NCBI RefSeq assembly: GCF_000739635.1
Contig: NZ_BATQ01000104.1
Coordinates: forward strand, 1-64,000
DNA from: Verrucomicrobium sp. BvORR034
GTDB taxonomy: Bacteria; Verrucomicrobiota; Verrucomicrobiia; Verrucomicrobiales; Verrucomicrobiaceae
Reading direction: 5' to 3'
Length of the DNA: 64,000 bases
The notes under the pieces are model-generated. The model did no database searches. It was not told the DNA's origin and worked only from the letters and a program-made list of their open reading frames with translations. Shown here one piece after another: positions 6,512 through 61,281 of the stretch (the stretch's first letter is position 1; each line of letters opens with the position of its first letter). Both the position numbers and the translations under genes were made by a program.

Positions 6512-7292
6512 CGAGCGGGCCCTTTCCATCCTCGGTGCCCAGGTAGGCGGCGATGACTTTCGGGTTGCTTTGAATTTCTGCGGGCGTGCCTTCAGCGATC
6601 TTCACCCCGTACTCAAGCACGGCGATGCGCTGGCAGATGCCCATGACGACCTTCATGTCGTGCTCCACGAGCAGCACGCTGATTTGGAATTTGTCTTTGA
6701 TGAACTGGATGAGGTGCATGAGCTCCTCTTTCTCCGTGGGGTTCATTCCGGCGGCGGGCTCGTCCAGCAGCAAGAGCTTGGGCTTGGTGGCCAGGGCGCG
6801 GACGATCTCCAGGCGGCGCTGATCGCCATAGCAAAGTGACTTGCACGGTGTGGACGCCTCCTTGCCCAGATCGAAGATATCGAGCAGGTCGAACACCTCG
6901 TTCTCGATCATCGCTTCCTCATCCAGGAACGCCGGTCCGCGGAAGAGGGAATGGGCAATGCCATGCTGCAGGTGCATCATCTTGGCCGTGCGGACGTTGT
7001 CGAAGACCGACAGCGAGGAGAACAGGCGGATGTTCTGGAAGGTGCGGGCAATGCCCAGCTTCGTGATCTGGTGCGGCTTGTGCCCCGGCACGGAGACACC
7101 GCCGAACTTGATGCTGCCGCTGGTGGGCTGATAGACCCCGGTGATGAGGTTGAACACGGTCGTCTTCCCGGCGCCATTGGGGCCGATGAGGCCGACGAGT
7201 TCACCCGGCTGGATGGAGAACGTCAGGCCCCCAACCGCGCGCAGACCGCCGAACTGGATCGAGACGTCATTGAGCTCAAGGACCGAACTCAT
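6504..7292 (-). CDS. livG: Branched-chain amino acid ABC transporter ATP-binding protein LivG
   Basis: This 262-residue ATPase has Walker A (GPNGAGKTT), a CYGDQRRLEI signature region replacing the usual LSxGQ as in many LivG proteins, and Walker B (LLLLDEP) followed by AAGMNPTEKEEL, which is characteristic of LivG. It pairs with LivF to power the LivHM permease. Its start overlaps the stop of livM by 4 bases, and its own stop overlaps livF, indicating tight translational coupling in one transcript. Confidence 0.94.
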   Translation of the reverse strand: MSSVLELNDVSIQFGGLRAVGGLTFSIQPGELVGLIGPNGAGKTTVFNLITGVYQPTSGSIKFGGVSVPGHKPHQITKLGIARTFQNIRLFSSLSVFDNVRTAKMMHLQHGIAHSLFRGPAFLDEEAMIENEVFDLLDIFDLGKEASTPCKSLCYGDQRRLEIVRALATKPKLLLLDEPAAGMNPTEKEELMHLIQFIKDKFQISVLLVEHDMKVVMGICQRIAVLEYGVKIAEGTPAEIQSNPKVIAAYLGTEDGKGPLDA

Positions 7293-8266
7293 GCGGACTT
7301 CCTCCTTTTCTTCTCAAAGGTGACAGGCAGAAGGCCCTGGGGCCGGACAATCATCATGACGATAAGCAGGATCGAGAACACGATCATGCGGAACTTTTCC
7401 GCATCGCGGAGTTGCTCATTGAGTGCAGTCAGGCCGATGGCGGCCACCACCACGCCCAGGGTGCTGCCCATGCCGCCGAGGATGACCATGATGATGATAT
7501 CCACCGACTTGAGGAAACCGAAGCCTTTGGGATCGATGGCACCGAAGAGGTGGGCGTAGAGTCCGCCCGCCAGGCCTGCGAAGAAGGCGCCCAGCACAAA
7601 GGCCACCACCTTGTAGCGCACGGTGTTCACCCCCATGGACTCGCTGGCCACTTCATCATCCCGCACCGCCAGGAATCCGCGGCCGTAGGTGGAGTTCACC
7701 ATGCTGGCCACCACGTAGATGCAGATGGCGGCGATGCCAAAGACCCAAAAGAAGGTGCTGTAGTCAGGAATGCCCCGCATGCCCAGCGCACCGCCGAAAG
7801 GCCCGCTGCTGGAGGTGTTCTGGAAAACCACCCGGATAATCTCATTGAACCCGAGGGTGACGATGGCGAGGTAATCGCCCCGGAGACGGAGGGAAGGCAC
7901 GCCCACCATCCAGCCGCATACCGCCGCGCAGAGGCCGCCCACCAGGAGGGCGATGACGAAGGTCACGCCGTGGGACAAGGTGCTGGGACCGCCGAGGAGC
8001 CCAAGGATGGAAGGCCCCATCTCCACGGAAACAGCGGCCGACATATAGGCCCCGACGCCCATGAAACCGGCGTGACCGAGGGAGAACTGGCCCGTGTGCC
8101 CATTCACCAAGTTCAGGCTCACGGCCAGGATGATATTGATGCCAGCCACCAGCATGATCTGGAGGACATAGCCATCAATGTTGTCCGAGGCCTGTGAGAC
8201 CACGAAGCTGACCAGCAGGGCCAGCAGGAGAAACGCTTGAGTGCGATACTTGAGGAGAAGTTGCAT
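7289..8266 (-). CDS. livM: Branched-chain amino acid ABC transporter permease LivM
   Basis: The 325-residue integral membrane protein has about eight to ten hydrophobic helices and the LivM/LivH family motif region NLVNGHTGQFSLGHAGFMGVG near residue 50, plus the cytoplasmic coupling loop around LRLRGDYLAIVTLGFNEIIR. It forms the inner membrane channel with LivH. It lies 11 bases downstream of livH and overlaps livG, so it belongs to the same operon. The C-terminus is basic (KKRRKSA), as expected for an inside tail. Confidence 0.94.
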   Translation of the reverse strand: MQLLLKYRTQAFLLLALLVSFVVSQASDNIDGYVLQIMLVAGINIILAVSLNLVNGHTGQFSLGHAGFMGVGAYMSAAVSVEMGPSILGLLGGPSTLSHGVTFVIALLVGGLCAAVCGWMVGVPSLRLRGDYLAIVTLGFNEIIRVVFQNTSSSGPFGGALGMRGIPDYSTFFWVFGIAAICIYVVASMVNSTYGRGFLAVRDDEVASESMGVNTVRYKVVAFVLGAFFAGLAGGLYAHLFGAIDPKGFGFLKSVDIIIMVILGGMGSTLGVVVAAIGLTALNEQLRDAEKFRMIVFSILLIVMMIVRPQGLLPVTFEKKRRKSA

Positions 8267-28693: not shown

Positions 28694-28812
28694 GAGCAGC
28701 TCGTAGCTGCACTTGTAAAAGTGCGGAAGGTGGCGCGACCCTGTGGTTCGAACAGCGCGCCATCGGCCTAAGCGCCCTGACCGGGTTCTCACGAACCCAG
28801 CCACACTGAGGG
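28694..28812 (-). repeat. Dispersed ~120-140 bp repeat, inverted single copy
   Basis: On the minus strand this matches the three tandem copies at 60874-61281, including the hairpins around GGGTTCGTGAGAACCC and GCACTTTTACAAGTGC. It occupies much of the 480-base gene-free gap upstream of the KaiC gene. The rest of that gap shows nothing I recognise apart from a 13-base match to the element at 18442. Confidence 0.75.
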
Positions 28813-34474: not shown

Positions 34475-34529
34475 CTAATTGAGAAGCACAGCTCGCTTAG
34501 AGCCCCGTCAGTCCCAGATTTGTCTCGCT

Positions 34530-35057
34530 GCCATCGGGGCGGGTTTACATGTCAGGGAGAATTGACGATGCCCCGCAACCTGAAAGTCAGCGGGTGCGAT
34601 CCAGCAAGCCGCTGCACGATCATCCATCGAACGTACGCCACGGCCAAATTCGGAAATATGACGCCGCACCTCTCGACGGGGCAGTTCCGCGACATGGCGT
34701 GTGCCTGACGCGCGGAATCCGCCACGCGCTGGCATCAAAGAGGAGAGGGGGGGCTGTCCGGCTAGTTTCCTCGCATGCCTCTCCCTTGCTGTGACCAATG
34801 GCACGCGGGGAGCTTGGCAGGCTCGCTCTGATCTGGTCTCTGCTCGGAACAGACCAGGACGCAGGGCAGCAAGCTTCAATTCGCTTTGCGAGTACACATT
34901 CAGGACAATATGGGTTCCAGCGGTCGTGGGCTGGACTTGAGCCGACGCCACACAGCAGGAAGCCAAAGGCTCGTTGGACCAACGAGGGTGCAACGATGTG
35001 GCGGATTCTGTTCACTGGGGTGTACGGATCTGCCAAATCCGACTGCTGCTGACAGCG
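34530..35057. repeat. Relic copy of the phage intergenic region (structured repeat, left)
   Basis: This ~520-bp sequence aligns along its length with 45050-45566, at roughly four identical bases in five by eye, with small indels that shift all reading frames; it is therefore not coding. Conserved hairpins are seen in both copies, with compensatory changes (see findings). It ends about 24 bases before the left att site and lies outside the present prophage, so it is best read as a relic of an earlier related phage. Confidence 0.75.
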
Positions 35058-35080
35058 CCTCAGGATTCACACCAGAACCA

Positions 35081-35107
35081 CAGTCTATTTTATATTACGT
35101 ACATCGT
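35081..35107 (-). other. Left att site, dif-like
   Basis: This 27-bp sequence is repeated at 46562-46588 with two differences. On the minus strand it reads ...TGTACG then TAATATAAAAT, resembling the Xer dif central region and XerD arm (E. coli TGTATA TTATGTTAAAT). The XerC arm is poorly conserved, as is common in phage att sites. Confidence 0.7.
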
Positions 35108-35247
35108 GTGTTGCGTAGCAAAACCAATACCCGTAATAACCTCAATAAGAGGGGATTAGACAACAAAGCACCATCTGCGCCAGAAGTACAGTTTGGCGCA
35201 TTCCACTGGTGTATTTTTGTTCATGCAGCCCTTAATTATGTTATTTC

Positions 35248-35484
35248 CTATGGGTTTTTCAGATTCTTCCAGATGTCTTCGGATGTTCTCAAACCTGTCT
35301 GTTTATGGCAGTCCAGTCGGATTCGATTTTCCACCAGGGGAAGCGCCTCATTAAGTAAGCGCAACAACATCGCACACTCCCGAAGGTGCTGGAGTTCCCA
35401 TTTCCAATTGGTTTCTTGAAATAACTCCTCTGCGTGATGGCTCAACTGCCGAGCCAAAATCAACACTTCCTCTTTCCTCGTCAT
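35248..35484 (-). CDS. Small helical phage-borne protein of unknown function
   Basis: From ATG at 35484 the 78-residue product is charged and predicted helical (MTRKEEVLILARQLSHHAEELF...). No family is recognised. It is the gene nearest the left att site, transcribed in the phage direction. The 140 bases between it and the att site hold no feature I recognise. Confidence 0.5.
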   Translation of the reverse strand: MTRKEEVLILARQLSHHAEELFQETNWKWELQHLRECAMLLRLLNEALPLVENRIRLDCHKQTGLRTSEDIWKNLKNP

Positions 35485-35559
35485 CCGCCGCCATGCCTCC
35501 CGTTGCCCCCGCAACCCAATGTGCGACGGCCTCCAAAAACTTCAACCCGACGCAGCGAG

Positions 35560-36045
35560 TTATTTCCCAATGCTCCGCTGAAGTTCGAGTCTCGCTTTTG
35601 CCTTTTCTTCTTCTGTCACGGGCTTTGCGGGATCCACGATGGGAGTCAAATATCTGGCCATGTCAGGTGGCCCCGACCGCCTCGTTTGGACTGGCTGAAC
35701 CGAGGAGCCAGTTTTTGCTTTTTGTGGGTCCGTGATCGTCAATTCCGCCCTCCGATTTGAGGGTGGGAAGTTGAATTGGGGCGGGGGAGGAGGAACGAAA
35801 GTAGATTCTTTGTTGGCCTTTTCCGCAGCTTCAGCGATGCCCGAAATCGCCGCGCCTGTTGCAGCAGCGCCCAGACCAAACAGGCCAAGCCCTAGGATGA
35901 AAAGGGTCGCGACACCAAGCACCCAAAGGCCGACGAGTACACCAATCACCGTTAACACCCTCATTTTGAGCCTGTAAGACCGTTCGGCGTAGTGAGCGAT
36001 TGCCGCTAAATCCTGCGTTTCTTTGGAAATGATGGGCTTTAGCAT
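35560..36045 (-). CDS. Phage-borne membrane protein with Pro-rich tail
   Basis: From ATG at 36045 the 161-residue product has a charged N-terminus (KETQDLAAIAHYAERSYRL), one long hydrophobic Gly/Leu-rich segment (about residues 30-68, long enough for two passes) and a Pro-rich polar tail (FVPPPPPQFNFPP) ending with a charged helix. No family is recognised. An upstream in-frame ATG at 36084 is possible. It may be an accessory envelope protein of the phage or host-interaction factor. Confidence 0.5.
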   Translation of the reverse strand: MLKPIISKETQDLAAIAHYAERSYRLKMRVLTVIGVLVGLWVLGVATLFILGLGLFGLGAAATGAAISGIAEAAEKANKESTFVPPPPPQFNFPPSNRRAELTITDPQKAKTGSSVQPVQTRRSGPPDMARYLTPIVDPAKPVTEEEKAKARLELQRSIGK

Positions 36046-36200
36046 AATTTCCAGAATAGGCCCGAGGCCCTTCGAGTGCAACAAATAGCCTGAAATTGCC
36101 CTGACGCTGACGCTGACCCCGCACCCGGCCCTAGACTATCTACTATCTCGTTCGACTCGATAACGCTACGCCTTCACCCGTTCCCCTCGTTGCACTCGGC

Positions 36201-36277
36201 AACCTGACAAAATCAGAAAATCCCCCATCTACCCCGGATTTTCTGCCCTCGCTTCGCTTCGGTGATTTTGTCAGGTT
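36201..36277. repeat. Nested inverted repeat, candidate phage replication/packaging structure
   Basis: Outer arms AACCTGACAAAATCA (36201-36215) and TGATTTTGTCAGGTT (36263-36277) are perfect 15-bp inverses; an inner pair AGAAAATCC (36215-36223) and GGATTTTCT (36236-36244) forms a second stem. Nested hairpins of this kind mark origins or packaging signals in ssDNA phages. It lies in a 290-base gene-free stretch inside the prophage. Confidence 0.6.
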
Positions 36278-36313
36278 GACGGGTTCGGGGCTTCGCTTCC
36301 GGGCGGTTGGGGT

Positions 36314-36335
36314 AATCGACTTCGTCGATTTTTTT
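36314..36335 (+). terminator. Probable terminator upstream of small plus-strand gene
   Basis: AATCGAC (36314-36320) pairs with GTCGATT (36324-36330) across a 3-base loop and is followed by T residues to 36335. It could stop plus-strand transcripts before they enter the small gene at 36338. Stem is short and AT-containing. Confidence 0.5.
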
Positions 36336-36351
36336 GCATGTATATGCAAAA
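36332..36351. promoter_or_regulatory. Perfect palindrome (operator candidate) overlapping a start codon
   Basis: TTTTGCAT and ATGCAAAA are perfect 8-bp inverses separated by 4 bases, and the left arm runs into the ATG of the small plus-strand gene. This is what an autoregulated repressor or anti-repressor site would look like in a prophage control region. Confidence 0.45.
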
Positions 36352-36526
36352 CGATATCAAACTCACGAAGGAAGAGAAAAGCCAGATTGCAGCCCTGGAG
36401 TCTTTGATTGCAGATCTGGACACCCACATCGCACGTGGTGGCCCCGCTGCGGAGGGCGTGGAACTCTCCAAGGCCGTTGCCAGAGGGCACATTTCCGCTA
36501 TTCACAGTGCCGCCCGGTGGCGGTAG
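36338..36526 (+). CDS. Small charged phage protein, possible regulator
   Basis: The 62-residue product is a charged helical protein (NDIKLTKEEKSQIAALESLIADLDTHIARG...). It is one of only two plus-strand genes in the prophage, transcribed against the phage block, and its start overlaps a perfect palindrome. A control role is inferred from position only. An in-frame ATG two codons later is equally possible. Confidence 0.45.
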   Translation: MYMQNDIKLTKEEKSQIAALESLIADLDTHIARGGPAAEGVELSKAVARGHISAIHSAARWR

Positions 36527-36632
36527 CGGGGAGGGGGGGCGCAAGGCCCCTTTCTCCTGCACGAACGACCTGTATTTTAATGACTGCCGGCATGCCGCTT
36601 TTGGCCTGCCTGGTTCAAACTTTTGTATCACT

Positions 36633-36836
36633 ATGGCAACGCGCATCTATGACGTGACCCCGGCCACGTTCTACCAGTACAACCGACACCGCCAGATGTG
36701 GGAGGCGTTCAGCCTGGACGAAGACGGCCTACGGGATCCAATCAACGAGTATTGCGAGACGGACAGCGACGCTATTCGTTCGTGTCTTGACTGGCAACAA
36801 CGACGCGACAGCGACCCTATCGAGCCGCCGTTCTAA
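36633..36836 (+). CDS. Small acidic phage protein of unknown function
   Basis: From ATG at 36633 the 67-residue product reads MATRIYDVTPATFYQYNRH and continues with an acidic, aromatic-rich sequence (EYCETDSDAIRSCLDWQQRRD). No family is recognised. It lies on the plus strand, convergent with the HEPN gene. The longer frame upstream starts inside the previous gene and has unlikely composition. Confidence 0.5.
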   Translation: MATRIYDVTPATFYQYNRHRQMWEAFSLDEDGLRDPINEYCETDSDAIRSCLDWQQRRDSDPIEPPF

Positions 36837-36868
36837 CGCTGTGAACGGCTTTTGATCGCATCTAGTTC

Positions 36869-37783
36869 CTAGTCCTGATGCTGCATACAGGTGAGGCATT
36901 GATTATCATCCGGATCATACACGTTGCCTTTACATTCCCCTTGATTGCAATCACGGCGCTCAACCGTCACTTCGTTTCCGCAGATGAAGCAGAACAGAGT
37001 TGTACTGCCCGCCGTGTTTGGACGCAGCTGAGCCGTTTTACATTCGAGGCCAAATTCCGCGTAAGCCCTGCTACACGTGGGACATCCGTAAACTCTCTGC
37101 TTCTTATTGTACCCGAAAAATCGTTTGAGCGAAGCAGCCCCAAGTAGCTCGATCAAGAGCACGAATTCCTCAGCAACACGAAAATCGACATGCTCAAGGT
37201 CGATCGCAGAAATCTTATCTCGATAGATATATTCTCGTCGTGCGGCAGCCCAGGCTTGAGGTCCGACTAGATGCTCTGAGAGCACTAGAATTCTCTCGAT
37301 CAGTGATTTTGCATTAACTTCAAGGTCCGAACAGACACTGTGCATGATAGAGTTCCGCTCTCGCCGAAGATTACTAAATACCTCCACGAACTCCTCTGGC
37401 AGTCTCGAACTCAAAAACGTGTCATGTACCTTGATCAAATCATGGGCGTCGATTGTCCGAAATTCTGAATAGTCCGTATCCTCTTTGTCGCAACGGCGAG
37501 GCCAATCCGATGGTGAACTAGCAACCAATAACCAAGGGCTTACCGAGCAGATCTTAGCCTTTAACAAAAACTCCGCTCCTTGCATCACGAGTGTCAAAGC
37601 GGTGGCCAACTCGCGCTCCGCTGCATCCCAGAATTCTTCTGCCATTTCTGGCTCCAATCCCGAGGCCCATTCGTTAGCGTGTTCAAAATCGGTGAGCACG
37701 CTCAGTATCGCACCCCATCCAAGGTTCATGTAGTCGACACCGTGCGCCTTAAAGTCTGTATCGAGAGGAACATTTCGAATCAT
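36869..37783 (-). CDS. HEPN-like RNase candidate with C-terminal zinc-binding cysteines
   Basis: The 304-residue protein is helical in its N-terminal two thirds and contains RNSIMH at residues 143-148, an R-N-x-x-x-H pattern typical of HEPN ribonuclease motifs. The C-terminus has cysteine pairs CPTC (234-237), CFIC (265-268), Cys at 279 and 284, and CLTC (296-299), consistent with zinc-ribbon folds. HEPN RNases are common toxins in abortive infection and toxin-antitoxin systems. Its place downstream of the secretin, outside the core phage block, fits a cargo gene. AT-richer than the structural genes. No antitoxin partner is obvious. Confidence 0.6.
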   Translation of the reverse strand: MIRNVPLDTDFKAHGVDYMNLGWGAILSVLTDFEHANEWASGLEPEMAEEFWDAAERELATALTLVMQGAEFLLKAKICSVSPWLLVASSPSDWPRRCDKEDTDYSEFRTIDAHDLIKVHDTFLSSRLPEEFVEVFSNLRRERNSIMHSVCSDLEVNAKSLIERILVLSEHLVGPQAWAAARREYIYRDKISAIDLEHVDFRVAEEFVLLIELLGAASLKRFFGYNKKQRVYGCPTCSRAYAEFGLECKTAQLRPNTAGSTTLFCFICGNEVTVERRDCNQGECKGNVYDPDDNQCLTCMQHQD

Positions 37784-37947
37784 AATCTCTAGCCTAAAAT
37801 GTTACGATACCGCTGAATCTGCAAAAGCCTCCGGCAATCGAGCCTTTCCTTCTGACCATCTTAACGTAAAAATCACCCCTAAGCTCCGAGCCTTTCCCAG
37901 CACAAGAACTTTTGCGCCGGACCCCAATGTAGCCTTGCCGCGAATGT

Positions 37948-38127
37948 CTAAAACCCGTCGAGCGCAATGGTCCCACTTTCGGCGGTGTAACTGTTCGGGA
38001 ACTCTTTCTTACACTCAGCGCTCTCGAGATCAAAAGTACCCAATCTGCGGTTCTCGTCGATGGTGCTTTGGCCGGACACGATCACTTCTTTCCCTATCCT
38101 GAATTCAGCTTTCACTTTTTCGGTCAT
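37948..38127 (-). CDS. Short phage protein, unknown
   Basis: An ATG at 38127 opens a 59-codon frame beginning MTEKVKAEFRIGKEVIVSG and ending in TAG at 37948. It has balanced composition with beta-strand-like alternation and lies in line with the phage genes, 81 bases after the small gene downstream of the secretin. An overlapping frame at 37794-38033 is basic and less plausible. No family is recognised. Confidence 0.45.
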   Translation of the reverse strand: MTEKVKAEFRIGKEVIVSGQSTIDENRRLGTFDLESAECKKEFPNSYTAESGTIALDGF

Positions 38128-38208
38128 CTGAGCTTAATAGTTAAAGTTAATACACTTTTAACGTAAATTATCATTGCTGCAATTCCTTTCTGCGCATTGC
38201 ACGGTGCC

Positions 38209-38424
38209 TTAATGCTGAGGTCCGCCTTCCTGTAGCCGCGCCAGCCAGAACGCCGCCACGTTCTGGCACCTCAGCGCCTCTTGTCGCTGGACCACGGTTA
38301 GACTCCGGTCCGTGGCCCGTTCCCTTCGCTCGTGCCACTCGCGGGACCAGTAGCACCAGCCAAGCGACACTGCCGCCCGGTCTTCTGCCGCACTGTGATC
38401 GAACCCGGGAAAGTAAGCGCTCAT
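38209..38424 (-). CDS. Small phage protein coupled to the secretin gene
   Basis: The 71-residue product (MSAYFPGFDHSAAEDRAAV..., rich in Arg, Trp and Ala) starts at an ATGA overlap with the secretin stop, which supports translation. No membrane segment or family is recognised. The acidic-then-basic pattern suggests a small soluble helical protein. Confidence 0.55.
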   Translation of the reverse strand: MSAYFPGFDHSAAEDRAAVSLGWCYWSREWHERRERATDRSLTVVQRQEALRCQNVAAFWLARLQEGGPQH

Positions 38425-39812
38425 GGCTTGAAAAAGTGGGTGAGATCCATCGCCTTGACTGGACCGCGCCCGACCTTCGGACGGACAAACACGACGATTT
38501 CCTTTGTCTCCGTGCCCTTCTTGACGGAGCCGAACAGGTATTTCAGCACAGGCAGACGGTTCAGCCCGGGCACCCCGGTAACGGTTTCCGTGTCGCGCTT
38601 GGTCCGCAGACCGCCGAGGAACACCGTCTCACTGTCCCGGGCAACGACGATGCTTTGCACGCCTTGCTCTGAGATGTTTGGCAGGCTGTTTCCTGATACC
38701 TCGCTGAACCCGGTGACGTCATTCTTGGACTGCTTAAAATCCAAACGGATCTTGCCGCCTTCCATGAGGTGGGGGGTTACGGAGACCTCCAGACGAACCG
38801 GGAGATAATCCGTCGTGACCACTGACGCGGTTTCCGTGACCGTCCGACCGGGCACCGGCACACGTTCCCCAACATAGATGTTGGCGGCCTTGTGGTTTGC
38901 CGTTTGCAGCTTGGGACGTTGGAGAATGCGGAAATCCTCCAGCTTGGAAAGCGCCTGGACGACTGCGCTATAGTCCTGCCCAACTTGCCCGTAGAGGGTG
39001 AGGCCCTCGCCCCCATAGAGAGCAGATGCGCCGGATCTGACTTGGGCCAAATCGGCCAAACCCGCGCCCCGGATGCTGCCAGCCAGACGAAGGCCGTCGG
39101 TGGCCTGCGTGAAGATCTGCGACCAGTCTACGCCGGCACTCTGCCCATCGCTCAGCGCGTACTCTGCAATGATCACCTCTAGCTCGATCATGGCCGGATC
39201 GACATCCATTTGCAGCGCCACCTTTTTAAGAGCCTCACGGCCCGCCTTAGTGCCGTAGAAGGTGACAGCATTCCCGGCGACGTCCTGCACCACACGGACC
39301 CCGAGAACGTCAGCAATGCCACTGCCAGAGAGAGGCATAGAGGCTTGTGGGGCAATCTGGGTTGATTGGACCGGGACCATGCCCAGCGGTGAAGCCTGAT
39401 TGATTCCGAAGCCTGAACTTTCCGGAAGGGCCACACGCGAAGGAATGCCTGTCATGGATTGCGCCTGGGTGATGGCCTCGACGAACTCGGAGACTGGCAG
39501 GAAGCGGAACACCACCCGCTCGGCATCTTCGCGGGTTTCCTCGCCCTGCACCTTTGGCACCGAGCGCCACACCACGGAGTTTGTTGTGTACTCGAACCCT
39601 ATGCCCTCCAAACGGAGACTTTCCTCAATCCATTTGAGGGCTGCGGACTGTTCCAACGGACGGAAGGCACGGACCGTAACTTCCGTGTCCTGCACCTCCG
39701 GGTGCACCATCACTCGGATGCCAGAGACCTCTTCATACACCTGCCCGACTTCTGCAACGGGGACGTTCTGAAACGACAGGGTGACCAGACCAGCGAGAAC
39801 GGCAAGATTCAT
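38421..39812 (-). CDS. Phage secretin, pIV-like outer membrane channel
   Basis: The 463-residue protein has a short signal (MNLAVLAGLVTLSF), an N0/N1-like region (VPVAEVGQVYEEVSGIRVMVHPEV), a further N-domain (VVFRFLPVSEFVEAI) and the secretin core: ALQMDVDPAMIELEVIIAEY, RPKLQTANHKAANIYVGERVPV, VTPHLMEGGKIRLDFKQS and VARDSETVFLGGLRTK followed by GVPGLNRLPVLKYLFGS. These match the type II/III/phage secretin family. It would form the outer membrane pore through which the filament leaves. It lies directly after Zot, as gene IV follows gene I in Ff phages. Confidence 0.93.
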   Translation of the reverse strand: MNLAVLAGLVTLSFQNVPVAEVGQVYEEVSGIRVMVHPEVQDTEVTVRAFRPLEQSAALKWIEESLRLEGIGFEYTTNSVVWRSVPKVQGEETREDAERVVFRFLPVSEFVEAITQAQSMTGIPSRVALPESSGFGINQASPLGMVPVQSTQIAPQASMPLSGSGIADVLGVRVVQDVAGNAVTFYGTKAGREALKKVALQMDVDPAMIELEVIIAEYALSDGQSAGVDWSQIFTQATDGLRLAGSIRGAGLADLAQVRSGASALYGGEGLTLYGQVGQDYSAVVQALSKLEDFRILQRPKLQTANHKAANIYVGERVPVPGRTVTETASVVTTDYLPVRLEVSVTPHLMEGGKIRLDFKQSKNDVTGFSEVSGNSLPNISEQGVQSIVVARDSETVFLGGLRTKRDTETVTGVPGLNRLPVLKYLFGSVKKGTETKEIVVFVRPKVGRGPVKAMDLTHFFKP

Positions 39813-39834
39813 ACTTAGTCAGCGTGAAAAGCTC

Positions 39835-41022
39835 TCAGCGCCCGAGCAACGAACTCAAACCCTGACCCAATGAGACAGGCAACGGCGAAGACCCCGAAAA
39901 GGGAGCCTGCGAGATCTGCGAGGATTGTATCCATGTTTTTCTTTCTTGTGTTGTCCATGGCCGAGCTATCAGCCTGCGGCCTGTTTTAGTTGTAGCGTAA
40001 AAACGCCCCCCGACTTCGACGAGGGCGACGAGGTTTTCCCCTCGATAGCTGGCACCGATTTCCAGAAGCACGCCGTCACGGCAAAAGACCCGTTGCCGGG
40101 TCTTGTCGTGCGCGGAAATAATAAGGTCGTCTTCAAGCCTCACGTTCCATTCCACGCCCTCGACGTGATAAGTCACAGTGTCGCGGGGCAGGACCGGAGC
40201 GAGTGCAGGTTTGCCGCTGAAATCTGCGGGAACCGGGGCCGTGGTTGAGCCAGCGCCCGAACCTATCGAAGCGTTGAGGTTCTTTTCCTCTTTGCGTGCT
40301 GCCGAGAAAATGCCCTTCACCTGCCAGACTCCGACAACCACCGCGAGGACGAGGAACGCGAGCACCATTAGGGCCGTGCGCTTGTCCTTGTTTTTCTTGG
40401 CTCCACGGCTGGCCGTTTTCTTGAGGCCGAGCGACCTGCCGACGGTGTCGTCTGTCCTGTAGAAATCGCCAATGCGCTGACTAAAGCGGTGATAGGTGGA
40501 GCCAATGAGGTTTTTACCCTCGCCGCCGCCGTAGCGCATGCGCTTGAAGTCACCCAGGAGCGGCCTCGCCAGCCAGCCTACGAACGGGATCATTTTGACC
40601 GCAACACAGTGCACGCGGATCTCGGTGAGACGCCGCAACATCACGTCAATGTTTGCCGCTGACTGCGTGATAAAATACACGTCCAGACCCGCCTTTCTGG
40701 ACCACACGAGCAACTCGAAAATATCGCGGTTGTCTCCACGCTTCTTTTGCTGGTCGTTCACGTGGAAGCACAGCGCGGCCTCATCGACCATGAGAAGGTT
40801 TTCTTTGCCTTCCTCGCCCGCGTGGATCACCGACTGCCATTCAGACGGATCAGCAGGGAGCTTGATATGCTGATCCTGCCAACCATTTTCCGCGATGGTT
40901 TCCTCATTAAGCTGCATGTTGGTATGCACCACCGCGCCTTCTTCGAAGGCCGTCAAACACACGTCCGCGCCCAGGTAGCTTTTCCCGCCACCCATCACGC
41001 CTGTTACAAGGTAGAGTGCCAT
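39835..41022 (-). CDS. Zot/pI-like phage assembly ATPase
   Basis: The 395-residue protein has Walker A GVMGGGKS (8-15), Walker B LLMVDEA (about 76-82) and a FITQSAANID motif of the Zonular occludens toxin (Zot) family. One transmembrane helix lies at about residues 216-235, followed by a periplasmic Ser/Ala/Pro-rich and globular tail. pI/Zot proteins drive filament assembly at the inner membrane and contact the secretin. It starts 2 bases after the pVI-like gene. Confidence 0.95.
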   Translation of the reverse strand: MALYLVTGVMGGGKSYLGADVCLTAFEEGAVVHTNMQLNEETIAENGWQDQHIKLPADPSEWQSVIHAGEEGKENLLMVDEAALCFHVNDQQKKRGDNRDIFELLVWSRKAGLDVYFITQSAANIDVMLRRLTEIRVHCVAVKMIPFVGWLARPLLGDFKRMRYGGGEGKNLIGSTYHRFSQRIGDFYRTDDTVGRSLGLKKTASRGAKKNKDKRTALMVLAFLVLAVVVGVWQVKGIFSAARKEEKNLNASIGSGAGSTTAPVPADFSGKPALAPVLPRDTVTYHVEGVEWNVRLEDDLIISAHDKTRQRVFCRDGVLLEIGASYRGENLVALVEVGGRFYATTKTGRRLIARPWTTQERKTWIQSSQISQAPFSGSSPLPVSLGQGLSSLLGR

Positions 41023-41024
41023 AA

Positions 41025-41390
41025 TCAGCCCACGGTTGGAATGCAGGACTTCACCATGCGGATGCCAGTGCAGACGATCTTGATGGGGATCAGCGTTGCC
41101 ACCATCATGATGCTTTCACTGATGGGGAAGAAGTAGTTCATTTTCCCATAGATGACCATGAAACCACCCTTAGAACCCGCACCGGATGACTGCACGAACT
41201 GCACGCCCTGCATGGTGCTGTTCCAGAGGTTGTCATTCAGCACGATGGACCCGAGCGCGGTGAACAGGAAGATAGGTATAGCGAGCAGGGGAAACGCCTT
41301 GAGGGCCACCATGTTGGCGGCCCGGAATCCATCGCGGGTGATATTGGCAAGGGTGCGAAGGACCGAATAGATGAATTGTGTGAGAAACAT
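41025..41390 (-). CDS. pVI-like minor coat/membrane protein
   Basis: The 121-residue product is very hydrophobic with about three membrane segments (LKAFPLLAIPIFLFTALGSIVL, FMVIYGKMNYFFPI, SIMMVATLIPIKIVCTGIRMV). Position between attachment protein and Zot, size, and hydrophobicity match gene VI of Ff phages and DUF2523-like minor coat proteins. The 4-base spacing to Zot indicates coupling. Confidence 0.8.
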   Translation of the reverse strand: MFLTQFIYSVLRTLANITRDGFRAANMVALKAFPLLAIPIFLFTALGSIVLNDNLWNSTMQGVQFVQSSGAGSKGGFMVIYGKMNYFFPISESIMMVATLIPIKIVCTGIRMVKSCIPTVG

Positions 41391-41408
41391 AGTGTTAGGT
41401 TCTAGGTG

Positions 41409-42953
41409 TTAATTTGCATCTGCGAAGGCTCCACGGATCATTTTGATGGCGCTCAAGAGCATCTGCCACGAGACCACCAAAAGGATCACATCTCGGCAGA
41501 GTTGGATCCACGCATCATACTGGGAGATGTTGAAGTTGATGGACCCGAAGGGGGTGGGAATCTGGAAGTCCAAGCTCTGCCTGGAAGAAGACCCCGGGAG
41601 CACGGTGGAAAACGCATCGTCTATTGCCTCGCCCAAGATGCCGAAGCGCGTTTTGAGCGTTGTCAGCATCTCGCCCATGCCAGCCAGAAATGCGCCGTCA
41701 TCTTCTGGAATGCCTTCCCCAAGCTCTCCCGGATCATCGCCGTCCCCGGTCAGAGCCTCTTTCAGATCACCCACGCCTTCGCCCACCGCTGCCGTTGCAG
41801 CCGTCCCTTGATTGATCGCGGAAATAACTCCACTCATGTCCACCTCTGGCCCACCGTCACCATCACCGACACCAGCGCCAGACTGCGCCTTGATCGCGTT
41901 CAACGTCCCCACCGCATCGACGTGAGCGGTGTCGCCGACCGCCTTGACGATGCCACCGAGCCGCTGCAACTCGGCAGTAATGTTGTTTGTCATGCTGTTT
42001 TGCTGGCTGGCGGTCGCCGCTGCGGTGCCGGATACCTGCGTATTTGCGGCTGGAGCAGGCAACGGGTTCGGACTGTTTACAACGGGCGTCGCGCCGCCCG
42101 TTGACCCCGTCGGGGGCGGGGTGGGCGTCTGCGTGGAGGGCTGCACGACTGGCTGTGACTGCGTGCTTCCTTGAGGCACTTCCTCCTGTTTGGTGCCGCC
42201 GAATTCAACGTCAGGCACCCACTGCACAAGCCCGACACCAACGGAGAAAGCACCCGTTCCGCCAGAACTGGAGGGCCGGGTGTACTGTTTTCCCCAGGAC
42301 TGCCCCGGAGCCAATTCTACCACTTCGTCGGGCATCCCGGGAATGGCGTTGCCTGCCGCATCACGCGGGCGGATCGTGTATTGCTGCGGCTGGCCTGTGG
42401 TGTTCGTCAGGGACACGCCCACCTTCTGCCCAACCTCTTGCACGCCGCCGCCGGAGGTAATAGCGCCCGCCTGACTGACGCTGTCACCACTGCCGCCCGC
42501 GCCCGTGGTGCGACCAGACCCCATGTAATTGAAGGGCGTTCCCGTGCCCTCAGGAAAATAAGCGGGCTGGCTGGTCTTTCCGCTGCCGGATTCGACGGCG
42601 AACCAAGATTGAATCGGGGTCCAACCGACATCTCCATTCGCGGTGTTGGCATACCCAATGATTGCCTCAAAGGCTGCGGGACGGACCCCGCCGAGGCTGA
42701 CGCTGCGAGCTCCACCAGGGTTAAAGTTGTTGGCAGTAGTGCTTTGTGCGATCAGGGATCCGCTCAAATTCGAGGCAGAACCAACGTAACGGACCATCAA
42801 GAAATAATATCGGTTGGTCCCCGATGTGCTTGGGGGCGTCCACATCGTGGTCGTGGGCTGACACACCCAATCAACCGCAAAGGCCGAATAAGAGAGATTC
42901 AGCGCGACAGCCCAAAGCGCGCCCAGAGCAACCCGAGAAAGAAAACGAGACAT
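41409..42953 (-). CDS. pIII-like attachment (adsorption) protein
   Basis: The 514-residue protein has a signal peptide (residues 1-26, ending SAFA), a folded N-terminal domain of about 200 residues, low-complexity linkers rich in Pro, Thr and Gly (QTPTPPPTGSTGGATPV), a conserved-looking helical C-terminal domain and a final membrane segment (DVILLVVSWQMLLSAI). This is the layout of filamentous-phage pIII, which binds the pilus or receptor and caps the filament. The N-terminal domain has no family I recognise, as expected for a host-range determinant. Confidence 0.85.
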   Translation of the reverse strand: MSRFLSRVALGALWAVALNLSYSAFAVDWVCQPTTTMWTPPSTSGTNRYYFLMVRYVGSASNLSGSLIAQSTTANNFNPGGARSVSLGGVRPAAFEAIIGYANTANGDVGWTPIQSWFAVESGSGKTSQPAYFPEGTGTPFNYMGSGRTTGAGGSGDSVSQAGAITSGGGVQEVGQKVGVSLTNTTGQPQQYTIRPRDAAGNAIPGMPDEVVELAPGQSWGKQYTRPSSSGGTGAFSVGVGLVQWVPDVEFGGTKQEEVPQGSTQSQPVVQPSTQTPTPPPTGSTGGATPVVNSPNPLPAPAANTQVSGTAAATASQQNSMTNNITAELQRLGGIVKAVGDTAHVDAVGTLNAIKAQSGAGVGDGDGGPEVDMSGVISAINQGTAATAAVGEGVGDLKEALTGDGDDPGELGEGIPEDDGAFLAGMGEMLTTLKTRFGILGEAIDDAFSTVLPGSSSRQSLDFQIPTPFGSINFNISQYDAWIQLCRDVILLVVSWQMLLSAIKMIRGAFADAN

Positions 42954-43153
42954 ACAGAGTAGGGGAGTAGTTCCGCCTGCCGGACCGTGAAGGGGAGTTG
43001 CTCTACTGCGGTGCCGGCATTCACCACGACATAGCCACGGCTAAAGCTGTTTCCAGCGACCGTGCAGCTTTCCCCAAAGACATGCAGGGGACCTGTCAAA
43101 GACTGGCCACCAACCTGCACCGTTGTTTCATCTAGAACTTGTATTTCGACCAT
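42899..43153 (-). CDS. Small phage membrane protein between coat and attachment genes
   Basis: The 84-residue product is beta-rich with one hydrophobic helix near the C-terminus (LLPYSVCLVFFLGLLWARFG). It overlaps the start of the pIII-like gene by 55 bases. Its position suggests a minor virion protein of the pVII/pIX or pVIII-associated kind, but the sequence does not show which. Its ATG follows immediately after the poly-A/T tract of the coat terminator. Confidence 0.55.
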   Translation of the reverse strand: MVEIQVLDETTVQVGGQSLTGPLHVFGESCTVAGNSFSRGYVVVNAGTAVEQLPFTVRQAELLPYSVCLVFFLGLLWARFGLSR

Positions 43154-43194
43154 AAAAAAAGGGGAGCGAAGATTTACACCCTCGCCCCCCCCTC
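43154..43194 (-). terminator. Terminator directly after the major coat gene
   Basis: On the minus strand, a G-run plus GCGA pairs with TCGC plus CCCC, followed by seven T residues, 14 bases after the coat stop. In Ff phages a similar terminator after gene VIII limits expression of the downstream minor coat and assembly genes, so function is likely the same. Confidence 0.75.
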
Positions 43195-43208
43195 CAGGTT
43201 AAGGCACC

Positions 43209-43457
43209 TTAGATGCCACGCTGAATCTTGCGCACCACGAAGGCACCCACGGCAATGATCCCGGCCACAGGCACCAACGCAGCGAAGAGCGCGGTTGCCT
43301 GGGTGGAAAGGGAGGTCGCAGTGGCCTCGATTTCGGTGGTGTAGTCAGCGCGGGCGGTGCCGACCGTCACAAGGGCAAGGGTGCCCACTGCCAGCATGCG
43401 GCTGACGTTGCGATTGCGGGCGATTTTGCGCAGGGTGTTCTTGAGCGTGTTTTTCAC
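43209..43457 (-). CDS. Major coat protein, pVIII-like
   Basis: The 82-residue precursor has a long basic signal region (MKNTLKNTLRKIARNRNVSR), a hydrophobic signal helix and a signal-peptidase site at TARA. The mature part is a textbook pVIII: acidic N-terminus (DYTTEIEATATS), a hydrophobic helix (ALFAALVPVAGIIAVGAFVV) and a basic DNA-binding tail (RKIQRGI). A GTG start is used. Filament walls are built from thousands of copies. Confidence 0.92.
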   Translation of the reverse strand: MKNTLKNTLRKIARNRNVSRMLAVGTLALVTVGTARADYTTEIEATATSLSTQATALFAALVPVAGIIAVGAFVVRKIQRGI

Positions 43458-43518
43458 TTTGGTTTTGTCTTTCTTGGTGGCCCCGGGCTACGGGGCAGTT
43501 TGTTTTGTTGTCGGCTAG

Positions 43519-43722
43519 CTAGGCCGAAAGTTTCAGGCCCCCCACTTGCGCCACGGCGCCCACGTATAGGAGGGTCGTTGCTCTGCTTTCCGGGCAGGTT
43601 CCGACGTCCGGGCAATGATGCGATACAGGCGACCCGCAGAGAGGGCACGCCTTGTCTTCAAACGGGAGCATATCAAGCGGGCAGTCTTTGGGGGCATCTT
43701 CATAACTAAAGAAAAGGTTCAT
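43519..43722 (-). CDS. Small zinc-finger phage protein
   Basis: From ATG at 43722 the 67-residue product has CPLCG then HHCPDVGTCP, giving enough Cys and His residues for one zinc site, and a hydrophobic C-terminal third. It lies between the replication initiator and the coat gene, where Ff phages have small genes. Function unknown. Confidence 0.6.
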   Translation of the reverse strand: MNLFFSYEDAPKDCPLDMLPFEDKACPLCGSPVSHHCPDVGTCPESRATTLLYVGAVAQVGGLKLSA

Positions 43723-43845
43723 GGTTGTTTCCTTGATCGGTGTTTTCCGTCCGCCGCTTCGCGGGCATAGCTTCTCCATTCAAGTCGCCCCTGCGGGTTC
43801 GGTCCGGGGCTCGCTTCGCTCGCCCCGTCCCTCCCCTTGGGGAAC

Positions 43846-44544
43846 CTATCGAACGAAGGAAGTACCAGCCGGGTGCATGCTGGGGACCCACAGGCCGCCT
43901 TCATACGCTGGTGCTTGCTTCGTGCGATCAGCTGCCGCCTTGCGACGGCCCGACAGTGACAGCCCCGAGGTATCGGTGTTCTCTGTCCCTTCCGTAGGTC
44001 TTGGCTTTACCGAACCCCGCGCCCATTTTTCTACGCAGGCATTCGCCAAGATCACCTCGCGGCCGTAGTCGGATTCCTCGAACTTGCGCATTTCGTATGC
44101 GTTCGCCCGTGACCGACTCCATTCCTCAAGCCCCTTGAGAACGTATTGCACCCCGGAAAGTCGGGTGTCGAAAATACGCACGTCCGAATGACCCCCACCG
44201 CAGCGCTTCCAAATCTCCTTGATCGTGAAGCGTTCGGTTTGATTCATCCGCCCAGGGGGTAAGCCGCTGATCAGAATATGAAAATGGTAGCGTCCCTTGA
44301 ACTCCCCACGCTCCTCACGAGCGGCCCAAAGCAGCTTGGAAAAGTGCACCTTGTCGATGCGCTTTCCCTCGCCGTTTTTCTTGAGGCCCTTCGCGACTTC
44401 ACGCAGGAAGGCAAACAACATGTGCCGCCGACCGTCCACCTTGGGCACCGAGACGTGATTTTTTTCCCCGTCCTCTGAGCGATAGGTCAGAGTGACAAAG
44501 TACTGCCACGTTTCGAGGCTGAGGTTATAGACGTCTGGTGACAT
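43846..44544 (-). CDS. HUH-type rolling-circle replication initiator
   Basis: The 232-residue protein has the three HUH motifs in order: FVTLTY (about 16-21), the metal-binding HFH (87-89, in YHFHILISG), and a single Tyr motif GVQYVLKG with Y134 and K137. It should nick the phage plus-strand origin and covalently attach to the 5' end. The last ~60 residues are basic and low-complexity. In the 120 bases downstream there is a GC-rich hairpin (about 43806-43828). Confidence 0.85.
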   Translation of the reverse strand: MSPDVYNLSLETWQYFVTLTYRSEDGEKNHVSVPKVDGRRHMLFAFLREVAKGLKKNGEGKRIDKVHFSKLLWAAREERGEFKGRYHFHILISGLPPGRMNQTERFTIKEIWKRCGGGHSDVRIFDTRLSGVQYVLKGLEEWSRSRANAYEMRKFEESDYGREVILANACVEKWARGSVKPRPTEGTENTDTSGLSLSGRRKAAADRTKQAPAYEGGLWVPSMHPAGTSFVR

Positions 44545-44565
44545 CTGTCCGACGCGTAAAGTGTG

Positions 44566-44958
44566 TTACTTGCTGGCGGTTCCCGCGGCCGCTTTGACCG
44601 GGGCAGAGGCGGATCCCATCGGGATCTCGTCAGCGTCCGGGTGCACCATGGCCTCGATTGCCTCGGCGGTGTGCTCGCCCTTCACGATCTGGCCACGGAT
44701 CGCAATGAAGGCATTGCGGGCGGTCATTTCCTGCACGGCTACAGTGACTCGCTCGTCCACGGCTTCAGAGGGTCTTCCACCGCCAAACTCCTTGCGGAAT
44801 TTCTCGGCTTTCACAGTCATGATCATGGGCGTCGTGCACCGGAAGTGCTTCGATTTGTCGCCCAGGATAAGCTGATACATGCTGACCTTCTGACCGGGGT
44901 TCTGCTTGTCGGGGAACTCCAGTTTTTCGACACGTTGGATTTCTGCCTTGATTACCAT
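44566..44958 (-). CDS. Phage ssDNA-binding protein, pV-like
   Basis: From ATG at 44958 the 130-residue product begins MVIKAEIQRVEKLEFPDK, with a small beta-barrel-like core (MYQLILGDKSKHFRC, RVTVAVQEMTARNAFIAIRG) and a flexible Ala/acidic tail. Position just upstream of the initiator and size agree with a phage single-strand binding protein that coats the newly made viral strand; direct homology to gene V is not visible. The intergenic region upstream holds the structured repeat. Confidence 0.65.
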   Translation of the reverse strand: MVIKAEIQRVEKLEFPDKQNPGQKVSMYQLILGDKSKHFRCTTPMIMTVKAEKFRKEFGGGRPSEAVDERVTVAVQEMTARNAFIAIRGQIVKGEHTAEAIEAMVHPDADEIPMGSASAPVKAAAGTASK

Positions 44959-45049
44959 GGCTTTAGTTTTGGTTGTTGAGTTGATTGGCCCCGCTTGGGG
45001 TGCGACCAGCACGGCGGGGCGCGCACTGGCAGTTTCCGAGGCTCTTGCC

Positions 45050-45566
45050 GCCATCGTGGGCGGACTGGCATGTCAGGGAAATTTGACGCTGCACCGCACC
45101 CTGAAGGTCAGCGGGGTTGATGCAGCGGGCGGTTGTCCGATCATCCATCGAACGGAGTCCACCGCCAAAGTCTTGACGCCGCACCCCTCGACGGGGAGTT
45201 GCCAGGGCACGGCGGGTGCTTGACACGCGGAATCCGCCACGCGCTGGCACCAAAGAGGAGAGGGGGGCAGTCCGGCTATTTCCGCGCATGCCGCTCCCTC
45301 GTTGTGACCAATGGCACACGGGGAGTTTGGCAGGCCCGCGCTGATCTGGTCTCTGTTCGGAACAGACCAGAACGCAGGGCAGCAAGCTTCAATTCGCTTT
45401 GCGAGTCCACATTCAGGACAACACGGGTCCAGCGGTCGTGCGCTGGACTTGAGCCGACTTCACACAGGAAGCCAAAGGCTGATTGCACCAGTGACGGCGC
45501 AACGATGTTGCGGATTCTGTTCATGATAACTACGGGTCTCGTAAACCCGGCTGCTCGTAACAGCAC
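45050..45566. repeat. Phage intergenic region with structured repeat (right copy)
   Basis: This noncoding stretch lies in the 640-base gap between the AbiJ-like gene and the ssDNA-binding gene. Stable hairpins include GTCCAGCG with CGCTGGAC, CGGGT with ACCCG (45533-45549) and a TGGTC/GACCA stem near 45355. In inoviruses this region holds the replication origin and packaging signal. A second, diverged copy is at 34530-35057. Confidence 0.75.
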
Positions 45567-45599
45567 CGCGATATTCCACAATGACTATAACGGAGTCAA

Positions 45600-46427
45600 T
45601 TATTTTTTTGGCAAAACTTCCTCCAGGTAATTTGTAAACGCTGAGCAGGTCACCAGCATGAACTTTGCTTCAGCATGGGTCACAGTGGACTCTTCCATCA
45701 GTGCATGTCGCAAGCCTTCAGGTCCACAGGTCCAGGCATATAGCTTTGTGAAGCCCTCTTTTAGACAACTGGGGAGGGGGATCTTCTTCAAAGCTTCACC
45801 CAACGTACTGTGCCCGGTGCGCTGCCTACAGGCAGTTTCGACTGCGGAAATAGACTCTTTGATAACGTTTCGAAAGTCCGGGTGCGGGCGCAGGGCCAAA
45901 AGCTTCGCCGCAGTTTTGATATGGGTTGAGCTATGCGGGCATGAAGAAGCCATGGCCGATTCGACGGTCTGCACTTCTACTATGTCACTGATAGGTACAA
46001 TCATGCCACCAATGATCCGATAAGCAGAGAATTCTTGTTCGAATGCTCGATTGACCGCCCCCACCAAGTCTTCACGCCCAGGATTCCACTTGAGCACAAC
46101 AAACTCGAGTAGATCCAGCACGCGAAACCAGTCGCCCTCCAGGAAAAGGCTCTTCAATGTATCATACCCAATATGCTTGGAAGGGGTGCGATTGTAGCGA
46201 GACAGGGAGTCCAAATCCCAACCGAGGAAATACCAAATGCTGAGATAAAGCTCCTCTATCGCCTGCACTTTGGGCGTTGTGTAGTCCCACGCTCCAGAAC
46301 TCCAATCGTCCCAAATATGAAGCTTCAGGATGTTCCAGACCTTCCTTCGAAGAACATCAGACAAGCACTCTAATTGGGGACTGTCGGGAGTTTTTACGTA
46401 TCCGTGTCTTTGCGAAAACGTGTTCAT
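45600..46427 (-). CDS. AbiJ-like abortive infection protein
   Basis: From ATG at 46427 the 275-residue protein opens MNTFSQRHGYVKTP, the pattern I associate with the AbiJ_NTD4 domain, and its C-terminal half (PHPDFRNVIKESISAVETAC, GEALKKIPLP, LKEGFTKLYAW, GLRHALMEE with Arg240-His241) resembles the companion HEPN-like domain of that family. Such proteins act in phage abortive infection. It is set apart from the phage core, next to the right att site, and is AT-richer; it may protect the lysogen from other phages. The family call is from memory of its pattern, not a search. Confidence 0.65.
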   Translation of the reverse strand: MNTFSQRHGYVKTPDSPQLECLSDVLRRKVWNILKLHIWDDWSSGAWDYTTPKVQAIEELYLSIWYFLGWDLDSLSRYNRTPSKHIGYDTLKSLFLEGDWFRVLDLLEFVVLKWNPGREDLVGAVNRAFEQEFSAYRIIGGMIVPISDIVEVQTVESAMASSCPHSSTHIKTAAKLLALRPHPDFRNVIKESISAVETACRQRTGHSTLGEALKKIPLPSCLKEGFTKLYAWTCGPEGLRHALMEESTVTHAEAKFMLVTCSAFTNYLEEVLPKK

Positions 46428-46430
46428 AAA

Positions 46431-46465
46431 TAAAAACCCGCCCGTGTTACGAGCACGGACGGGCG
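46431..46465 (-). terminator. Terminator-like hairpin directly upstream of the AbiJ-like gene
   Basis: On the minus strand CGCCCGTCCGTG pairs with CACGGGCGGG, followed by five T residues, ending 4 bases before the ATG of the AbiJ-like gene. A terminator between promoter and gene suggests attenuation; it may otherwise insulate the phage from read-through out of the chromosome. Confidence 0.7.
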
Positions 46466-46469
46466 ACAA

Positions 46470-46538
46470 TTAAGTCTGGCCGAACAGAATCAGCGTTACG
46501 GCAAAAATAGGGGCAGCGGAGCAGCATGCAAGAGACAT
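46470..46538 (-). CDS. Possible leader peptide upstream of the AbiJ-like gene
   Basis: A 22-codon frame begins MSLACCSAAP, is hydrophobic in its second half (IFAVTLILFG) and stops 5 bases before the terminator-like hairpin. The layout (short ORF, terminator, gene) is that of transcription attenuation or a small membrane peptide. No clear Shine-Dalgarno; translation is uncertain. Confidence 0.3.
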   Translation of the reverse strand: MSLACCSAAPIFAVTLILFGQT

Positions 46539-46561
46539 CTTTTCAATACCTTTATTTTCAC

Positions 46562-46588
46562 CAGTCTATTTTACATTACGTACATTGT
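46562..46588 (-). other. Right att site, dif-like
   Basis: This repeats the left att site with two changes. On the minus strand it gives ATACAA, TGTACG and TAATGTAAAAT; over the 19 bases from AATGTA this differs from E. coli dif at four positions. It is the better dif match of the two sites. Confidence 0.7.
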
Positions 46589-46666
46589 ATCTAGTTATAA
46601 GTATTCCCCGGCGAGAGCTCCAAAACACCCTCAAACCCCCAATCTGCACTCAGTTCTGACAGTTTC

Positions 46667-46698
46667 CGGCTATAATCGGCTATAGTCGGCTATAGCCG
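46667..46698. repeat. Three tandem ~10-bp units next to the right att site
   Basis: CGGCTATAAT, CGGCTATAGT and CGGCTATAGC follow each other and the last forms a palindrome with its neighbour (CGGCTATAGCCG). It lies in the 400-base gene-free stretch between the att site and the SNF2 gene; nothing else is recognised there. Confidence 0.55.
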
Positions 46699-46988
46699 AT
46701 GCCTGGCCAATTCGCAGGTCTGAGCCTCATCCAAGTCACTTTGTGAGGCAGTGTTCCACGTGCAACATTCAGTATAAACGCCTGATTTTGAGGCCTCAGG
46801 ATTTCGAAGTTTTGACGCCGTCCGGCGCTGGGCTCACAAAGCTTCGCGCCAATTTGGACTGCCTCGCGTGAAGGCCGTTCTCAGAATCGCGCCAGCGTCC
46901 TGTGGCCACCGGCACAGACCCAGGCGCGTCCTGCAGCCTTGACGAAACTGCGAGACGCAACACTGAGACCATCCCGAGATGGCTGCCG

Positions 46989-60873: not shown

Positions 60874-61281
60874 TCAGTCGTGGCTGGGTTCGTAAGAACC
60901 TGGTCAGGTCGCTTGGGGCCCATGACGCTCTGCTCACACCGCAGGGCCGTGCCACCCTTCCGCACTTTCACAAGTGCAGCTACGAGCTTCGAACAGATCT
61001 GCGATGATCCTCAGTCGTGGCTGGGTTCGTAAGAACCTGGTCAGGTCGCTTGGGGCCCATGACGATCTGCTCACACCACAGGGACGCGCCACCCTTCCGC
61101 ACTTTCACAAGTGCAGCCACGAGCTTCGAATTGCCCTGCGATGAGATCCTCAGTCGTGGCTGGGTTCGTAAGAACCTGGTCAGGCTGCTAGGGGCCCATG
61201 ACGCTCTGCTCACACCGCAGGGCCACGCCACCCTTCCGCACTTTCACAAGTGCAGCCACGAGCTTCGAACTGCTCTGCGGG
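60874..61281 (+). repeat. Three tandem copies of a ~138-bp repeat
   Basis: Copies begin at 60874, 61011 and 61150, each starting TCAGTCGTGGCTGGG, and are about 90% alike by eye. Each has a GGTTCGTAAGAACC hairpin and a GCACTTTCACAAGTGC hairpin. A single inverted copy is at 28694-28812. They fill the 480-base gap between two genes, and short frames inside them are not genes. Confidence 0.85.

Follow-up and report, generated by a model that had tools for sequence, protein, structure and literature searches.

A putative kissing-loop RNA module ahead of the replication operon in filamentous prophages of the Verrucomicrobiales

Results

Gene content of the prophage

The window, that is, the whole 64-kb stretch of DNA that was analysed, carries an inovirus prophage at 35081-46588 with genes for a secretin, Zot, the major coat protein and a G2P-type Rep, all on the minus strand. 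The co-occurrence of a Zot/pI ATPase, a secretin, a small coat protein and a rolling-circle Rep places the element among the inoviruses. An identical 11,481-bp element is present as a contig in IMG/VR, where the search otherwise returned distant matches to Zot only; the relatives that could be named belong to the Verrucomicrobiales. Two 27-nt repeats, attL (35081-35107) and attR (46562-46588), bound the element. Their core, TGTANGTAATRTWAAA on the minus strand, recurs at the end of phages related to this one in other genera and resembles a dif site. As the core is dif-like and no integrase was seen, the prophage likely integrates by way of the host XerC/XerD. Two other repeats were observed: an inverted repeat of 22 nt with a gap of 47 nt in the left part of the prophage (36194-36284), and a sequence of about 137 nt present in three tandem copies at 60874-61279 of the window and as a single inverted copy 32 kb off, at 28698-28811.

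The Rep (43846-44544, minus strand) belongs to the REP_ORF2-G2P family (PF23343) and has the HUH motif. It is preceded on the same strand by a gene for a ssDNA-binding-like protein (44566-44958), its function assigned by position, for which family searches gave no match; the start at 44958 was set by comparison with relatives, the longest ORF starting at 45054. Two small minus-strand ORFs come before this gene. ORF Y (45276-45524; 82 aa) is the first gene of the replication operon and has homologues in genomes G004 and G014, and ORFs occupy the same place in G027, G033, G058 and G065. ORF Y is under purifying selection, with synonymous changes exceeding non-synonymous ones in both the G027/G065 (dN/dS 0.32, Fisher p 0.001) and the G004/G014 comparison (dN/dS 0.45, p 0.015). 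ORF X (44963-45289; 108 aa) overlaps the end of Y and stops a few bases ahead of the likely start of the ssDNA-binding gene; its substitution pattern is close to neutral and its coding status is uncertain. A PHROGs search with Y and X gave no match.

Inside ORF X, between Y and the ssDNA-binding gene, is a hairpin termed H2 (45176-45217, minus strand; CCCGCC-stem-loop-GGCGT). With changed stems and the consensus CCCGCC-stem-loop-GGYGT, it is present in most relatives (R, G002, G004, G014, G027, G058 and G065). H2 is a possible replication origin, and either H2 or the twin hairpins described below could be the origin of the phage. Further upstream, a cargo gene with an AbiJ N-terminal domain (45600-46427, minus strand) lies between the twin hairpins and a candidate small RNA.

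A repeat shared with a phage relic

A sequence-only reading of the window had described a structured repeat common to the prophage and to a chromosomal relic. The repeat is real, its copies at 34523-35059 and 45043-45567 being 83% identical over 539 columns. A search of the genome found these two copies only, and phage and plasmid records held no nucleotide homologues of the repeat. The right copy precedes the ssDNA-binding and Rep genes, and the left copy lies just outside attL. The claim that indels break every frame applies to the left copy but not to the right, in which the minus-strand ORFs Y and X are intact. Because both frames are interrupted in the left copy (34523-35059, minus strand), it is a decayed relic; the cargo gene and the candidate small RNA are absent from it. 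As had been proposed, it is the remnant of a related phage that was present earlier, one that occupied the same att site. G002, a genome of the same genus, has a comparable relic at the same chromosomal position and with the same flanking genes. The G002 relic (locus L005, about 6105-7870) consists of the start of the ssDNA-binding gene, remnants of X and Y, a different cargo gene and an att site, and its loops are partly decayed. In G014, a tRNA-Leu-like stretch (locus L006, about 7005-7085) adjoins a relic copy of the region.

The same reading had argued for selection on structure from two base-paired changes. The first of these is genuine: the stem at the distal end reads CGGGT/ACCCG in the right copy, against CGGAT/ATCCG in the left. 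For the second, the letters are exact (45131 G/45163 C in the right copy, 34610 C/34642 G in the left), but the folds differ in detail between the copies, and the change rests on two sequences and lies within ORF X. Since most of the repeat is coding, its conservation from end to end is no evidence for structure. Selection on structure is supported at one place, the distal stem, and the claim is too broad for the 530-nt repeat, most of which is small protein-coding genes.

Twin hairpins with identical loops

The distal stem is one of two tandem, adjacent hairpins (45533-45564, minus strand) that have identical 7-nt loops and stand ahead of ORF Y at the head of the replication operon. In the sense of the phage, target hairpin 1 reads GCTG-TTACGAG-CAGC (45550-45564, loop 45554-45560) and target hairpin 2, which contains the distal stem, reads CGGGT-TTACGAG-ACCCG (45533-45549, loop 45538-45544). 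They are the only tandem hairpins with identical loops in the 64-kb window, and none were found in 1.92 Mb of shuffled window sequence. The twin hairpins of the relic (35025-35055) have the loops TCAGCAG and TTGGCAG in the sense of the phage. Related phages carry the twin with other loop letters (TTCTCAG, TTCGCAG, GTCAGAG and CTGACAG, each twice), as do phages of other families, with the loops TGTAGCAG, TCTAGCGG, TCTAGCAG, TTTAGCAG and GTAACGA, again each twice. The stems of the twin also differ between phages, with pairing kept. In the phages read, the replication operon has its first start codon shortly 3' of the twin, and in most of them a TTGAC box stands ahead of the twin. In an unconstrained fold of the whole leader, the two small hairpins are not both favoured. 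The twin loops were also considered as nick sites for Rep, which is disfavoured since near-identical Reps (G014 and G004, 93%) have different loops.

A third hairpin with the complementary loop

A search for more copies of the loop as protein operators turned up a single inverted copy instead, and with it a third hairpin. This hairpin lies near attR, 0.9 kb from the twin and outside the coordinates of the sequence-only reading, which had not noticed it. It is terminator-like (46437-46464, minus strand), reading GCCCGTCCGTG-CTCGTAA-CACGGGCGGG and then TTTTTATTT, and its loop (46447-46453) matches both twin loops exactly in reverse complement. As RNA it folds with -23.4 kcal/mol (z = -4.6). A candidate small RNA would run on the minus strand from the att site to this terminator, with an approximate extent of 46437-46560; strict scanning for sigma-70 sites in the window region found no consensus promoter. 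The cargo gene separates the third hairpin from the twin in the window phage, and in L106 and L104 the two are only about 90 nt apart. The compact layout of L106 consists of a TTGACA box, about 105 nt, the terminator, a TTGACG box, the twin and an ATG.

Most loops of the candidate small RNAs (CTCGTAA, CTGAGAA, CTGCGAA, CTTGTAA and others) fit the pattern C-U-N-N-N-A-N and so resemble a tRNA anticodon loop. It is possible that they adopt a U-turn shape for fast pairing.

Occurrence among relatives

The twin together with a complementary third hairpin is present at 17 inovirus loci from three families of Verrucomicrobiales, a count that includes the window phage and one relic. In each of the six f1 phages with a 7-nt twin, the loop recurs once more near att, 288-1338 nt upstream, as an inverted copy; G014, with a 6-nt twin, likewise has one upstream, and the G014 relic and G065 also have one. 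The inverted copy makes up the loop of the third hairpin, which is on the same strand and is mostly a strong stem with a T-run after it. Among phages of the other families, the complementary third hairpin was found in five of five, then in L106 and, in less perfect form, in L104 and G022. The arrangement varies in detail. L111 and L103 have the complementary loop in a pair of successive hairpins upstream, G022 and G065 have a single matching target loop, and in G027 and G058 the terminator is distinct from the matching hairpin and follows it. The module was absent or unrecognisable in L105, L109, L179 and L102, and none was found when M13, IKe, Pf1, VGJ and XacF1 were scanned or at Rep-like loci outside the family.

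A blind scan looked for a terminator-like hairpin whose loop holds a 6-mer complementary to the loops of two tandem hairpins downstream. All its matches were on the sense strand, in 10 inovirus loci; neither the antisense strand nor 664 kb of shuffled sequence gave any. The same scan of Zot loci mostly from outside the order gave no match in 560 kb (both strands counted, some loci overlapping). The third hairpins of G022, G027, G058, G065 and L103 were found by a search for the complement and not in the first blind scan. In a matrix of 16 phages, which have 14 distinct loops among them, cognate loops match over 6-9 nt and non-cognate loops over a mean of 2.9 nt. The observed sum of matches, 113, was reached in none of 100,000 permutations, the best of which gave 85.

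Discussion

The hairpins, the exact complementarity of their loops, its upkeep despite changed letters and the place of the twin before the replication genes can all be read directly from the sequences compared. As the position and strand of the hairpins are shared by descent and the loop letters differ, it is the maintained complementarity that is the signal. Pairing between the loops is strongly supported on this basis. A terminator hairpin whose 7-nt loop is the exact complement of two hairpin loops in the leader of the replication operon has the appearance of a kissing-loop antisense RNA. It is reasonably probable that the operon is repressed by such a small RNA, which would also determine the immunity group of the phage.

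Under this scenario, the small RNA would be transcribed from just inside the att end and would terminate in the intrinsic-terminator hairpin, exposing the 7-nt loop. The leader of the operon for Y, X, the ssDNA-binding protein and Rep would fold into the two adjacent hairpins with their identical complementary loops. The small RNA loop could then kiss one or both leader loops and reduce operon expression, for which a block to leader translation would be the simplest route. Since repression of the operon would act in trans, the RNA is proposed to serve immunity or copy-number control. The prophage would be kept quiet and the replication of incoming phages with the same loop stopped, and phages with other loops would be unaffected, so that the loop sequence would define an immunity or incompatibility group. 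Such heteroimmunity predicts that phages at one chromosomal site have different loops. Consistent with that prediction, though the pairs are few, the loops differ within both co-resident pairs compared (n = 2), namely the G014 phage and its relic, and the right and left copies in the window. In its widest form the hypothesis is that a lineage of filamentous prophages in the Verrucomicrobiales uses a 7-nt kissing-loop RNA with two identical target loops to control replication and superinfection, and that the loops diversify into many mutually blind immunity groups, allowing related phages to share one att site. This wider form is put forward tentatively, at somewhat less than even likelihood.

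Alternatively, the three hairpins may be DNA elements, such as an origin, an operator or a packaging signal, two facing one way and one inverted, with the loop as the recognition sequence of a phage protein. Repeated identical loops are iteron-like, and a pair of tandem hairpins near the replication gene is likewise found at the origins of M13 and IKe. However, the third hairpin has the loop but not the stems in common with the twin, is always inverted and is mostly a terminator, and the G014 and G004 Reps are 93% identical and nonetheless go with different loops. Together these features make recognition by a phage protein an unlikely explanation. It is less likely still that the loops kiss within single-stranded phage DNA, joining two places on the packaged or replicating strand as a packaging or replication signal. 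The packaged strand of known inoviruses is the coding strand, on which both hairpins lie here, and pairing of the loops would be just as good in DNA. Against such a contact, the T-runs 3' of the third hairpin and the TTGAC boxes before the twin indicate transcripts, and there is no obvious reason for rapid loop change in a DNA contact in cis. RNA is favoured over DNA both by these boxes, present in most phages, and by the compact layout of L106. Finally, the view of the sequence-only reading that selection acts on the entire 530-nt repeat as a single structured RNA or DNA is rejected as very improbable, as the repeat is mostly ORFs Y and X, with Y conserved as a protein under purifying selection, the frameshifts of the left copy those of a decaying relic and no match in Rfam, even if the conserved H2 within the near-neutral ORF X suggests that the inner region may be partly structured.

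The antisense small RNA that we favour has parallels in several known systems. In the C4 antisense RNA of phages P1 and P7, short variable loops recognise phage mRNA, set specificity and give superinfection immunity (PMC5320573). The hairpins described here likewise appear to offer short variable loops complementary to a regulated phage mRNA. They differ from C4, which folds into a conserved three-stem structure of its own and is cleaved by RNase P, in having one terminator loop and two identical target loops in a filamentous phage. As Rfam gave no match with a meaningful E-value for the window or for 45000-46700, the prophage module is not a member of the C4 family, and it would work like C4. 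In ColE1-type plasmids, loop-loop contact of RNAI with the structured leader RNAII controls replication, and changed loops give rise to new compatibility groups (PMC9458437). Pairing between the loops of two hairpins is also predicted here. In contrast to RNAI, which overlaps RNAII and is fully complementary to it, the RNA proposed here would be encoded 0.1-1.3 kb off on the same strand and be complementary only in the loop of 6-9 nt. Since an overlapping antisense gene is absent, the module is not of the RNAI type. Antisense RNAII of the rolling-circle plasmid pMV158 is a small RNA that blocks translation of the gene for a rolling-circle initiator (PMC4485353). To that extent it resembles the RNA proposed here in acting against a rolling-circle initiator gene, pMV158 being a plasmid and the present element a phage.

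Among filamentous phages, the viral-strand origins of M13 and IKe resemble the twin in having two tandem hairpins near the replication genes, but they lack both a twin with identical loops and a complementary third hairpin. Immunity of the Pf4 inovirus prophage depends on the repressor protein Pf4r (PMC8402870). The module would have a comparable role in the immunity of a filamentous phage and in keeping replication of its prophage under control, with a protein in the one case and an RNA proposed in the other. In the reports consulted, control of inovirus prophages is by repressor proteins, and a matched RNA-loop code, if true, would be a different route to self-recognition for filamentous phages. 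The immunity determinant of phage cf is possibly RNA-based; that determinant is the subject of a 1999 paper by Cheng cited in PMC5666396. If specificity does reside in seven bases that can be read from the sequence, immunity groups would be predictable from genomes, and such a code would help account for the stacking of related phages and relics at one chromosomal site.
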